From Terriglobia bacterium (GTDB taxonomy: Bacteria > Acidobacteriota > Terriglobia > Acidiferrales > UBA7541), in contig JAIQES010000017.1 in assembly GCA_020073705.1 (NCBI GenBank), positions 1-64,000 of the forward strand: DNA of 64,000 nucleotides, in the 5' to 3' direction. Positions 26,093 to 31,627 of this stretch are shown here, piece after piece. A program made the translations under genes and the position numbers. The notes under the pieces were generated by a model that was not told the origin of the DNA, searched no databases, and saw only the letters and a list, made by a program, of their open reading frames with translations. Numbering within the stretch: position 1 is the first letter of the stretch; every line of letters starts with the position of its first letter.

Positions 26093-26376
26093 CGCAGTCG
26101 TTGCCTGATCCGGCCGTTCGAACCGTGCGGCGGTCTAAAATCATTTGTCCGCCGTACTTCGTTTTTGCGGACACCGGAGGGAGTCTCCGCACGTCTATAT
26201 TGTTACCGGGTCTGTGGCTACTCCCGGCCGTGAAGACGCATCAAACTACAATTGTGCGCACAGGCCCACCGCGGCCGCCGTGATAATTGCCGGGAGCCCG
26301 TGTTTGAGATTGGCGGCGCATAGGCTAAACTATTGAGTTCGTCAGGCCGATGAATCGGCATACTGGAGCAGCCCCC

Positions 26377-28122
26377 GTGAAAACATGCACTTTTGCGACT
26401 CTCGTAATGGTCTTCTCTCTGAACGCGCTGGCGGCAGGCAAGCCGGCGCGTCGTCCAGCGCCGGTGCCGCCGTCGCAACCGGCGGCGGAGGCTACGCCAG
26501 CTCCCGCCCTGGTGACGATGGGCCAGGAGCTTGACCGGGAGCTGCCCATTCTTTCGAAAGTCACTCCGGCAGCTTACTTCATTGGTTATACACTGACGTC
26601 GACGCAGCGGGCCGAAGTCATGGGTTCGAACGGGGCTTTGCTTTCGAGCCAAGAAAGCCGTTCCCGGTGGCTCGAAACACAGGTGCGCGTAGGCAGCTAC
26701 GACCTCGACGACACGCATAAGGTCGGCAACTCCGTCCAGCCCCAGGGCAGCTACGGCACCGCCGTGCCGGTGGAAGATGACGCCGGGGTACTCCGCCGCG
26801 CCATGTGGCTGCAGACCAATAAACAGTATCGGGCTGCCTCAGAAGCTCTGATCAAGATCAATACGAGCAAGGAAGTGCAAGCGCAGACCGCCGAAGAACA
26901 CGCGCCGGATTTTTCCCGCGAGCAACCGCATGTGTTCTACAGCCCGGAAATCTCCTTTCAGCTCGAGCGCAAGCCTTGGGAGGAAAGAGTCCGATTGTAC
27001 ACGCGCGCATTTCGCGCCTCGCCGCAAATCCTGAACTCGATCGTCACGTTTAGCGCGCTGGGGCAAAATCAGTACCAAGTTACCAGCGAAGGCACGCGCT
27101 TGCAGTTCGGCCAGATCCATTACCGGCTGGAATTGTTCATCCAGGGCAAGGCGCCCGATGGGATGGACATCAACCGCTATTACAATTTTGACTGGACCGA
27201 CCCAGCTAACGCGCCGGACGACAAAGCCGTGCTCGCCGAAGGACAGGTCCTCCGCAAGGAACTCGAGGCGCTGGTGGCCGCGCCGCTGGTCGAGCCTTAC
27301 GCGGGTCCCGCGCTTCTTACCGGCCGCGCCACCGCGGTTTTTTTTCACGAAGTCTTCGGGCACCGCTCCGAGGGCTTCCGTCAGAAAGACATCAGCGAAG
27401 GCCAGACCTTCGCGCGGAAGGTCGGCGAACAGATTCTTCCGAATTTTCTTTCGATCTACGACGATCCGACCGAGAAGACCATCGGCAAGGAGATGTTGCT
27501 CGGCTACTACCCGTTCGATGACGAGGGCATTCCGGCCGAGCGTGTCACGTTGGTGGACCGGGGGATTTTGCGGAATTTTGAAATGTCGCGCCAGCCGCTC
27601 ACCGGATTTTTGCATTCCAACGGCCACGGGAGACGCCAGATCGGCGCGCAGCCGGTTTCGCGCCAGGGCAATCTGATCGTTCAAAGCAGCCGCAGCGTGA
27701 CCAACGCCGAGCTGCGCAAGAAATTAATCGAGGAAATCAAACGCCAGGGGAAATCGTTCGGCCTGCTGATTGACGACATCGCCGGCGGTTTCACGTTCAC
27801 CGGCCGCGGCCAGCCGCAGGCGTTTCAGGTGCAACCTCTGGTCGTTTATAAGGTGTTTGCGGATGGACGCCCCGACGAACTGGTCCGCGGCGTGGATATC
27901 GTCGGCACGCCGCTGGTTTCGCTCACCAAGATTCTCGCCACCGGCGACACACCCGAAGTCTTCAACGGATATTGCGGCGCAGAATCGGGTTCTGTGCCCG
28001 TTGCCGCGGTCGCTCCGGCCATCCTTATTTCCGAAATGGAAGTGCAGAAGAAGCAAACTTCGACCGACAAACCGCCCATCCTGCCGCCGCCTGCGCATGA
28101 TCCGGAAGGAGCGCGTCCATGA
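26377..28122 (+). CDS. Exported TldD-like metallopeptidase
   Basis: A 581-residue TldD/PmbA-superfamily protein. Unlike cytosolic TldD, it begins with a likely signal peptide (MKTCTFATLVMVFSLNALAAG) followed by a Pro/Ala-rich linker. The zinc motif HEVFGH (HExxxH) is at residues 324-329, the place of HEAIGH in TldD, followed by RSEGFRQK. TldD forms a heterodimer with TldE and cuts unfolded peptides. The GTG at 26377 was preferred (GGAG upstream, signal peptide begins there); an ATG at 26350 adds 9 residues. The end overlaps the next gene by ATGA, which encodes the TldE-like partner. Confidence 0.85.
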   Translation: MKTCTFATLVMVFSLNALAAGKPARRPAPVPPSQPAAEATPAPALVTMGQELDRELPILSKVTPAAYFIGYTLTSTQRAEVMGSNGALLSSQESRSRWLETQVRVGSYDLDDTHKVGNSVQPQGSYGTAVPVEDDAGVLRRAMWLQTNKQYRAASEALIKINTSKEVQAQTAEEHAPDFSREQPHVFYSPEISFQLERKPWEERVRLYTRAFRASPQILNSIVTFSALGQNQYQVTSEGTRLQFGQIHYRLELFIQGKAPDGMDINRYYNFDWTDPANAPDDKAVLAEGQVLRKELEALVAAPLVEPYAGPALLTGRATAVFFHEVFGHRSEGFRQKDISEGQTFARKVGEQILPNFLSIYDDPTEKTIGKEMLLGYYPFDDEGIPAERVTLVDRGILRNFEMSRQPLTGFLHSNGHGRRQIGAQPVSRQGNLIVQSSRSVTNAELRKKLIEEIKRQGKSFGLLIDDIAGGFTFTGRGQPQAFQVQPLVVYKVFADGRPDELVRGVDIVGTPLVSLTKILATGDTPEVFNGYCGAESGSVPVAAVAPAILISEMEVQKKQTSTDKPPILPPPAHDPEGARP

Positions 28123-30014
28123 ACTGCCCTAGGAAGAGTTTCGAGTCGAAGATTTTCGCTGCGATTTTCTTTGCCATGCTCACGCTCGCACTGATTCTGG
28201 CGAAGCCCGCCGAGGCCGCTCCTGCGAAACACGCGGCTGCGACGCCTTCCCAACCACAGCAGGCTGCGGCGGCGGACTCCGACAAGACGCTGGCCGCCAT
28301 GCAGGATGAACTCGACCGTTCCCGCCAGCGCCTCGTGCTGAAAATTCCGGACAAGAGTGAACCAGCGCGCCCCTACTATATCCAGTACCGCATTCTCGAT
28401 CTGGACGTCCGCACTATCGTCGCGGAATTTGGCGCGCTGATTTCCTCGACCACCGGGCGCAACCGCATCATGAGCGTGGATGTCCGGGTCGGAAACTATA
28501 ATCTCGACAGCTCCAACTTCATCACCGACGAGGGTTTCAGCGGCTTTTTGGGTTCGACAGGCACGGTCGGCATCGACCGCGATTATGATTCGCTGCGCCA
28601 GGACCTCTGGCTGGCCACCGATCAGGCGTTCAAGGCCGCCGTCGAAAACTTTTCCAAGAAACAGGCATTTGTTTCGCGCCTGGCGAACGCGCCGAGCATT
28701 CCCGATTTATCTCCCGCGGCTCCTACCGTGGCCGTTGAGCCTCTCCGCGAGCCGGATTGGACCACGCGGAACTGGGAGCAGGAAGCCAAGGCGGTTTCCG
28801 CGGCTTTGCGCGCATTTCCGCAGTTGTACAGCTCTCGCGTCACCTACCGCCTGATCTACACAACAAGTTACCTGCTCAATAGCGAGGGGACTAAGATCCG
28901 CGCCAATCGCAGCCTGGCGGCGATTGAAGCGAGCCTCGAGACGGAATCCGGCGATGGCATGCCGTTGCACAATTTTCTCGCCGTCTACCGCAGCCGTCCC
29001 GCTGGGTTGCCCGCTGCAGAAGTCGTGCGCAAGGACCTCGAGCAGGCCGGGGAGCAGTTGATCGTGCTTCGTGCGTCGCCCCCTGCGGCCGATTATGACG
29101 GCCCGGTGTTGTTTGAAGCGCCCGCAGCGGGTTCGCTGCTGGCGCAGATGCTTGGGCCGTCTCTATCCGGCGCGCGCGGTCCGCTCGCGATGCAATCGGC
29201 TTTTGATCAACTGATGGATCGGCTGGGCGGACGCAGTGAATGGACTGGTAAGCTAGGTACGCGCGTCTTCCCAACCAACGTCTCCTTGGTGGACGACCCG
29301 GCGGAAAAACAGTTCGCGGGACAGGATCTGCTCGGCACCTATACGGTGGATGAAGAAGGCGTGAAGGCGCAACGTGTGCAAGTCGTCGAGAATGGAATTC
29401 TACGGGATCTGCTGATGTCGCGCCGCCCGGGTCCGGATCTCGGCCACTCAAACGGTCATGGCCGCGCGGCGTATCTCGGCGACCCGCACCCCTTAATCAG
29501 CAATCTCTTTTTTACTTCCACGGCCGCCGAATCCCCGGCCGACCTGAAAAAACAATTCCTGGATGCATGCAGGCAGAACGGGAACAAATGGTGCCTTATC
29601 GTTCGCGCGATGGATAATCCCGTCTTGGGCGTGCGCGAACAGGACGAACTCTCCGACCTCGTAATGGGTGCAGCGTCCGGCGCCGCCACTGGCGACCGCT
29701 TGCCGCTGCTTGTGTATCGAGTCAACGTCGACGATGGGCGGGAAACGTTGATTCGGGGCGCGCGGCTCAGCGGACTCACGCTGCGCGCGATGCGCAATAT
29801 TGCCGGCGTCGGAAGCGATGCCACTCCATTCAACTTCACGCAAAGCCAACAGACTGGTTTTTCCGGGACTGCGCTGGCCGCATTCGGATCGGCTGACTCG
29901 GGCGTTCCAGCTACGGTGATTGCGCCTTCGCTGCTGTTCGACGACGTCGAGGTTCATGGCGCACGCGGTGAGCCGCGGCGTCTTCCGCTGGTTCCTTCGC
30001 CGCCGATGAATTAA
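28119..30014 (+). CDS. Exported TldE-like protein, partner of the TldD-like peptidase
   Basis: A 631-residue protein of the same superfamily. It has an N-terminal signal anchor (about residues 10-31, IFAAIFFAMLTLALILAKPAEA) and a helical linker, then the TldD/PmbA-type fold. The HExxxH motif is absent: the matching place reads VLFEAPAAGSLLAQML. TldE-type subunits likewise lack the metal site and shape the active chamber. The YTVDEEGVKAQRVQVVENGILRDLLMSRRPG block parallels the partner's DDEGIPAERVTLVDRGILRNFEMSRQPL. The ATGA overlap with the upstream gene suggests balanced production of a pair. Confidence 0.8.
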   Translation: MNCPRKSFESKIFAAIFFAMLTLALILAKPAEAAPAKHAAATPSQPQQAAAADSDKTLAAMQDELDRSRQRLVLKIPDKSEPARPYYIQYRILDLDVRTIVAEFGALISSTTGRNRIMSVDVRVGNYNLDSSNFITDEGFSGFLGSTGTVGIDRDYDSLRQDLWLATDQAFKAAVENFSKKQAFVSRLANAPSIPDLSPAAPTVAVEPLREPDWTTRNWEQEAKAVSAALRAFPQLYSSRVTYRLIYTTSYLLNSEGTKIRANRSLAAIEASLETESGDGMPLHNFLAVYRSRPAGLPAAEVVRKDLEQAGEQLIVLRASPPAADYDGPVLFEAPAAGSLLAQMLGPSLSGARGPLAMQSAFDQLMDRLGGRSEWTGKLGTRVFPTNVSLVDDPAEKQFAGQDLLGTYTVDEEGVKAQRVQVVENGILRDLLMSRRPGPDLGHSNGHGRAAYLGDPHPLISNLFFTSTAAESPADLKKQFLDACRQNGNKWCLIVRAMDNPVLGVREQDELSDLVMGAASGAATGDRLPLLVYRVNVDDGRETLIRGARLSGLTLRAMRNIAGVGSDATPFNFTQSQQTGFSGTALAAFGSADSGVPATVIAPSLLFDDVEVHGARGEPRRLPLVPSPPMN

Positions 30015-30171
30015 GACAACGAGGCATGGGCGTTTTGCCCTCTGGCAGGATCGGGGCGAAGGGCCGCGCTACCTCGTCACCGCCATATCGCATTCGTATT
30101 TTGTTTCATGGCGCGACCGCAATATGCGACTGTGCGCAGGTTCGCGCCGCGCTTTCCACATCGCGCCATCG

Positions 30172-30177
30172 TATAAT
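30172..30177 (+). promoter_or_regulatory. Probable -10 box of the CDF gene
   Basis: TATAAT at 30172-30177 lies inside the longest open frame but 46 bases before the ATG at 30224, which supports that ATG as the start. The -35 region is weak. Confidence 0.4.
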
Positions 30178-30223
30178 CCTTTCGAGGATCCCCATCACAC
30201 GCTCTTCCAGTTCGGTCAAGCAG

Positions 30224-31627
30224 ATGGCGGCGCTCGGGTCGATCGGCTCCGCTGTAGTCCTGGTGGGGCTCAAGGTGTTTCTTGCCGTCGCCACCGGGAG
30301 CCTCGGTGTGCTTTCCGAAGCGCTGCACTCGGGTCTTGATCTGATCGCTGCAATCCTGACGTGGCTTTCGGTGAGGGTCTCTGACCGCCCGGCCGATTCC
30401 GATCACACGTATGGCCACGGCAAAATCGAGAATTTTTCAGCATTTGTCGAAACCGGTCTGCTGCTGGCCACTGCAGTGTACATCATCGTCGAGGCATTCG
30501 TTCGCCTGCTGTACAAGCGAGTGCACCTGGAGCCAAACCTGCTTGTCATTTTGATTCTCGGTTTCGCGATGTGCATTGATTTGGTCCGCTCACGTGCGCT
30601 CGCCCGGGTCGCCCGTGAGTACCCGAGTGAGGCACTCGAAGCGGATGCGCTCCATTTCTCCACCGATGTCTGGAGCACGTTCGCCGTGATTTTGGGAATA
30701 GCCGCGGTCTGGATTGGCCAGCAGACCGGCGTGCCATGGATGCAAAACGCTGACCCCATCGCCGCGCTCGTCGTTGCAGCCATCGTGATCCGGGTGAGCT
30801 CGCAGCTGGGAAAACGCACTCTAGGCGCGCTGCTCGACGCAGCACCCGCGGGCCTGCAGGAGCGCGTCGCGGCGGCGGTCGCGGGCCTGGACGGCGTGCT
30901 TACCACCGAGCGTGTACGCGTGCGCCGCGCTGGGAACCAACACTTCGTGGATGTCACCATCAGCGTGCCGCGCTCAACCAGTTTCGAACAGGTGCACGCC
31001 ATTTCCGATGCCGTCGAGCATCGCGTTGGAGAAATCGTTCCCGCCGACGTGATGGTTCACATGGAGCCGCGCGCTGCCGCAGGGGAACATCTATTTGATA
31101 GGATTCGCGCGATCGCCGCGCGGCGCGGCCTGTCCGTCCATGAGCTTTCCGCGCACCAACTCGATGGGCGGTTGTTCATCGAGATGCACCTGGAAGTGCC
31201 CGAGCAATTGAGCCTGCGGGATGCGCACCGCAGGGCTTCGGAACTCGAGGAAGAAATCCGCACGCTGGCTGATGTCTCCGCTCCCGCGACCGGCGCCGCT
31301 CCCATCGTGAATATCCACATCGAACCGCTCGGCACTCACATCGCGGCTGTGGATGGCCAGCACGGCGAAATGACAGGTCTCGGCCGCGTGATCGAGGATT
31401 ACATCAATACCTTGCCACGTGAATACCCCGAACTGGTGGATTGCCACGAAGTTCACGTCCGCCCGGTGGAAAACAAGATTCTGGCCTCGTGTCACTGCGC
31501 CATGGACGGCAGCCTGCCCATCACACAGATCCATGACGTCACCGCCGCACTGGAAGACCGCGTGAAGGAACGCTTTCCGCAGGTCGCCCGCGTTACCATC
31601 CACCCAGAGCCTGTCGAAGAGGGCTGA
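30224..31627 (+). CDS. Cation diffusion facilitator with a three-fold C-terminal region
   Basis: CDF proteins exchange Zn, Fe, Mn or Co for protons. Six membrane helices span about residues 5-205, with metal-site residues in EALHSGLDL (His36, Asp40) and ALHFSTDVWS. Normal CDFs end with one cytosolic domain of about 80 residues and total about 300. This one has 467 residues and three related alpha/beta segments in a row, ending in VTIxVPR..VMVHMEPR, FIEMHLEVP..VNIHIEPLG and ILASCHCAM..VTIHPEPVE. Each ends in a V-x-I/V-H-x-E-P strand. I used the ATG at 30224, as the frame upstream contains a -10 box. Confidence 0.88.
   Translation: MAALGSIGSAVVLVGLKVFLAVATGSLGVLSEALHSGLDLIAAILTWLSVRVSDRPADSDHTYGHGKIENFSAFVETGLLLATAVYIIVEAFVRLLYKRVHLEPNLLVILILGFAMCIDLVRSRALARVAREYPSEALEADALHFSTDVWSTFAVILGIAAVWIGQQTGVPWMQNADPIAALVVAAIVIRVSSQLGKRTLGALLDAAPAGLQERVAAAVAGLDGVLTTERVRVRRAGNQHFVDVTISVPRSTSFEQVHAISDAVEHRVGEIVPADVMVHMEPRAAAGEHLFDRIRAIAARRGLSVHELSAHQLDGRLFIEMHLEVPEQLSLRDAHRRASELEEEIRTLADVSAPATGAAPIVNIHIEPLGTHIAAVDGQHGEMTGLGRVIEDYINTLPREYPELVDCHEVHVRPVENKILASCHCAMDGSLPITQIHDVTAALEDRVKERFPQVARVTIHPEPVEEG

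Follow-up and report, generated by a model that had tools for sequence, protein, structure and literature searches.

The window, a stretch of 64,000 nucleotides from an acidobacterial draft genome of 3.79 Mb, carries two overlapping forward-strand genes that we refer to as D-like and E-like, or D and E. The closest records to the window were Terriglobia and Acidobacteria MAGs at 84% identity, in a scan whose patterns derive from one protein and which therefore finds close relatives. The features of the locus are as follows.

26365..26368, forward strand: GGAG, putative ribosome-binding site for the D-like gene, 8 nt upstream of its GTG, from direct reading of the sequence
26377..28122, forward strand: D-like gene, predicted exported M103-type metallopeptidase of 581 aa with signal peptide, GTG start (PF19289 E 1.4e-29); its TGA stop codon occupies 28120-28122
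26377..26433, forward strand: predicted Sec-type signal peptide of D, VKTCTFATLVMVFSLNALA, followed by AGK, from a home-made signal rule and the starts of relatives
27346..27363, forward strand: HEVFGH, predicted zinc-binding and catalytic motif of D
27973..27975, forward strand: Cys533 of D, predicted third zinc ligand
28106..28111, forward strand: AAGGAG, putative ribosome-binding site for the E-like gene, within the D-like reading frame and 7 nt upstream of ATG 28119
28119..28122, forward strand: ATGA overlap of the D stop and the E start
28119..30014, forward strand: E-like gene, predicted exported and catalytically degenerate sister protein of 631 aa with signal peptide (PF19289 E 1.5e-25)
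28119..28217, forward strand: predicted Sec-type signal peptide of E, MNCPRKSFESKIFAAIFFAMLTLALILAKPAEA, ending in AEA and followed by APAK, from the home-made rule and a modelled helix at residues 10-27
29142..29159, forward strand: AQMLGP, degenerate active-site helix of E at the place of HEVFGH

The two reading frames and their ATGA overlap agree with an earlier, sequence-only reading of this DNA. We placed the D-like start at GTG 26377 rather than at ATG 26350 given that three relatives (L011, L014 and L016) have a V/L start codon with Lys after it at the equivalent place. Scans for promoters and terminators returned no more hits than they did in shuffled sequence. Directly 3' of the pair (window 30026-31627) lies a gene for a cation diffusion facilitator of the zinc-transporter type; because its likely start falls about 200 bases after the pair and it accompanies the pair in only seven to eight close relatives, we did not use it as a functional clue. 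Beyond close relatives, the Acidobacteriota pairs have no neighbours in common.

Both products open with an N-terminal export signal, as the sequence-only reading had suggested. Signal peptides were scored with a simple home-made rule for n-, h- and c-regions and not with SignalP; by this rule 26 of the 28 D or single-gene proteins of this family, hereafter the exported family, have signal-like N termini, as do 23 of its 27 E proteins, the failures being the D protein of L045, L046 and four E proteins. Among PF01523-type TldD/TldE controls 4 of 25 were positive, and in three of these four the signal is evidently of the Tat type. Cysteine is scarce in the exported proteins, at 0.33 per 100 residues in D and 0.27 in E; the canonical proteins have 0.89 (D) and 0.56 (E). 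Low cysteine content is common among exported proteins. From these sequence features we predict that D and E are exported by the Sec pathway, and we infer that their signals are cleaved and that the mature proteins reside in the periplasm. The hydrophobic stretches could instead be uncleaved anchors tethering a periplasm-facing complex to the inner membrane, an arrangement with which the Pro/Ala-rich linker of about 20-30 residues after each stretch in D and E would be consistent; however, D, E and most of their relatives have good AxA-type cleavage sites beyond the hydrophobic core, and we consider anchoring quite unlikely. In the papers searched we found no description of an exported TldD; the review of Vobruba et al. 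(2022), which PMC10885120 cites, falls outside that set.

Profile alignment places His324, Glu325 and His329 of D on His262, Glu263 and His267 of E. coli TldD, and Cys533 on Cys454. In TldD, His262, His267 and Cys454 are the metal ligands and Glu263 is the catalytic glutamate (Ghilarov et al. 2017, PMC5810440). The putative third ligand, Cys533, is the sole cysteine of mature D and had been absent from the sequence-only reading. Both histidines and the glutamate are invariant in 23 of 23 exported D proteins and the cysteine is present in 22 of 23, with one gap. E lacks HExxxH and also lacks a cysteine at the third-ligand place, and the active-site motif is gone from all 23 exported E proteins; the contrast first noted between one protein that keeps HEVFGH and another that has lost its metal site thus holds throughout the family. 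Conservation over 23 D and 23 E proteins excludes chance as the source of these features.

The C-terminal PmbA/TldD domain (PF19289) matched D with 103.3 bits and E with 90.1 bits against a cut-off of 22, which assigns both proteins to the M103, or PmbA-TldD, superfamily. The N-terminal domain PF01523 gave no match in either protein and is recognisable by fold only, and D also scored below the TldD equivalog cut-offs, with 66.5 bits against 635 (NF040952) and 33.5 against 513 (NF008006). AlphaFold models built from 13-14 sequences (mean pLDDT 72.7 for D and 64.5 for E) showed the complete two-domain TldD/TldE fold in both proteins when compared with Foldseek and VIA-align, the D model matching TldD with Z 30.6 over 447 aligned residues and the E model with Z about 26 (26.1) over 376, whereas unrelated folds reached Z 6 or below. 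Across their full length D and E share about 28-30% identity, and both match canonical proteins weakly.

Exported D was found in 37 of 247 Acidobacteriota genomes, every one of which also encodes E (37/37, 38 pairs), and within the window's class 22 of 27 sampled genomes have the pair. A search for plasmid copies gave only weak matches to canonical TldD. Elsewhere the family is represented by single genes. Nitrospinota carry a single gene in 18 genomes, amounting to 20 full-length genes since two genomes have two intact copies; in the phylum of G248, 28 genomes each hold one full-length gene, apparently unsignalled, and G248 itself holds one in fragments; one acidobacterial genome (G033) has a lone gene on an outer branch. 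The motifs of the Nitrospinota and G248-phylum genes are intact wherever they could be read, and the H, E, H and Cys residues are intact in every single-gene protein included in the tree. The Nitrospinota single peptidases (L021, L086, L095-L107) share with window D their lineage, a signal peptide, HEAxGHRLE and mostly CGAESG-like motifs, the protein of L021 being 36-38% identical to window D. They differ from the window pair in having no dead partner, and the Nitrospina genome G247 encodes neither a dead partner nor any other family member.

In a tree of 73 proteins, for which canonical TldD/TldE were sampled from Acidobacteriota only and in which a long branch lies between the exported family and canonical proteins, the two groups split with support of 100/100, exported D forming one clade (100/99) and exported E another (100/100); canonical TldD did not form a single clade. 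When single-gene relatives were included, exported D and exported E together formed one clade (99/98) to which the Nitrospinota exported singles were sister (97/95), so that the branching order runs from the canonical outgroup through the unsignalled singles of the second phylum with one acidobacterial single, then the Nitrospinota exported singles, to the D and E pair. Constraining exported E to group with TldE cost 189 log units and was rejected (AU p 3.6e-55). An independent character agrees that exported E is separate from TldE, namely the SNGHGR arginine, which window-type E keeps (23/23 exported E) and TldE has lost (0/8). Because the closest outgroups consist of single genes whose active site is intact, the exported lineage appears to have passed from a single enzyme to an enzyme with a dead partner, and from the sequences it most likely reached this pairing independently of the TldD/TldE split.

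These relationships bear on whether the locus is simply a regular TldD/TldE pair to which signal peptides were added and which kept its ancestral division between D and E. The common fold, the gene order and the split into active and inactive proteins all fit such a relocation. Yet the window's genome also holds a canonical, PF01523-positive tldD/tldE pair (contig C70), the comparison that the sequence-only reading had called for; moreover, D and E resemble each other at about 28-30% identity while their canonical matches are weak, PF01523 finds no match and the score for the TldD equivalog lies far below its cut-off, exported E does not group with TldE, and the outgroup consists of single-gene relatives. 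We therefore regard relocation as most improbable. Since D and E are nearer to each other than to canonical proteins and stem from their own duplication, their likeness to TldD/TldE is better described as parallel evolution within one fold. Of the periplasmic or secreted TldD/TldE-type peptide-processing complex first proposed, sequence, conservation, predicted fold and co-inheritance uphold an exported active/inactive pair and a probable periplasmic complex, but its identity as TldD/TldE with export signals gives way to a separate lineage.

Whether E serves D as a subunit can be approached through their joint inheritance. Close spacing of the two genes is conserved, and in one genome (G051) D and E lie inside different contigs, C136 and C54 (L043 and L044), indicating that both are kept without close linkage. 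Distances among D proteins track those among E proteins (r 0.93, 0 of 2000 permutations), although shared descent alone could also give both this correlation and the co-inheritance. Against close relatives, dN/dS is about 0.1 for both genes, consistent with purifying selection, and so the dead copy too is strongly constrained. That the pairing is conserved, that the genes overlap and that E is constrained all speak for E as a structural subunit. The competing view holds that D acts as an exported homodimer or monomer and that E is no subunit but a distinct exported binding protein, for instance a scaffold that binds peptides or has a regulatory role. Nitrospinota singles with an intact site and without an E partner lend this some plausibility, as does a Sulfolobus TldD homodimer reported as active in work cited in PMC5810440. 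Nevertheless, D never occurs without E among the 37 sampled Acidobacteriota genomes, the close spacing is conserved, and E remains full-length with the whole fold, so we judge an independent D unlikely.

Further TldD-type genes were noted in this and other genomes. The window's genome (G000) carries a second exported D/E pair on contig C71 (L009:4868-8295), with HEVLGH in D and no motif in E. Its identity to the window pair is 46% for D and 34% for E, and it is nearer to other pairs of the class (L053, L057-L059). The genome's canonical TldD (L010:5458-6975, with HESIGH) belongs to a second, divergent canonical branch outside the main TldD clade. In other Acidobacteriota, canonical-type TldD proteins carry twin-arginine signals such as SRRSFLKTTAG and ERRGFLKLTG (L134:2086-3750, L135:1727-3361, L136:2099-3622 and L137:1792-3360), and the adjoining gene for the dead partner has no signal where it was read (L134, L136 and L137). 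Like window D, these are active M103 subunits with an export signal next to a dead-partner gene, but they are PF01523-type, use twin-arginine signals and fall on another branch of the family. Their partners would need to be carried along, which suggests piggy-back Tat export and a second, separate kind of exported TldD.

Taken together, we consider the following account of the window pair probable as a whole. D and E would be translated in a coupled manner from one mRNA and exported by Sec to the periplasm, where they would form a hollow TldD/TldE-like heterodimer. D would hold a metal at His324, His329 and Cys533 on the inside of the cage and cut the peptides that enter, which would be unfolded ones only, with E, the dead copy, closing the shell. 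The origin of the pair would lie in an exported M103 peptidase encoded by one gene and presumably acting as a homodimer. That gene would have been duplicated and one of the copies would have lost its active site, no later than in the common ancestor of these Acidobacteriota. The heterodimer, the metal, the activity and the substrate class are proposed here by analogy with the cytosolic E. coli TldD/TldE (PmbA) heterodimer of MEROPS family M103 (5NJ5), which likewise has the two-domain fold in both subunits, HExxxH and a distant cysteine in D, and a dead partner. Unlike that complex, the window pair is predicted to be exported, has about 100 additional residues and a C-terminal tail rich in Pro, has a first domain missed by PF01523 and traces to a separate duplication.

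TldD/E matures microcin B17 and other RiPPs (PMC10885120), and the window pair could accordingly be a peptidase dedicated to removing the leader of an exported RiPP or of some other peptide product. However, no YcaO was found in the window's genome, no biosynthetic neighbours are conserved at the Acidobacteriota loci, and the pair is widespread in the phylum, making a dedicated leader peptidase very unlikely. With neither conserved neighbours nor YcaO, we prefer a general envelope role in trimming or clearing exported peptides, and the job of the pair may thus be general peptide clean-up or maturation.

The single enzymes of Nitrospinota provide a further lead. Of 18 loci examined, 15 carry, tail-to-tail with the enzyme gene and within 300 bases of it (89-185), a gene whose product is a small exported protein; this convergent orientation means that the two do not form one operon. 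The small family comprises proteins of about 130-150 aa with two invariant cysteines (L021:7739-8200, L021:4663-5127, L122, L124, L130, L131 and others), gave no Pfam match above cut-off and had no relatives in 60 Acidobacteriota genomes. A PAS/sigma-54 activator was also seen near several of these loci. As a lead on the substrate of the Nitrospinota enzyme the small protein is suggestive only. A broader reading, which we put forward tentatively and with less than even confidence, is that the exported family is a natural repeat of the step from homodimer to heterodimer of enzyme and dead partner, with the intermediate still alive in Nitrospinota and the small exported protein as its substrate or regulator.

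The role of TldE as the dead subunit of a conserved protease is poorly explained. An independent second origin of such a pairing, together with a living single-gene state, would allow the value of a dead partner to be assessed by direct comparison of homodimer and heterodimer. The findings would also place an M103 peptidase, familiar from intracellular peptide maturation, at the cell envelope, and the small exported family of Nitrospinota may offer a first candidate partner for a protease family with largely obscure everyday substrates.
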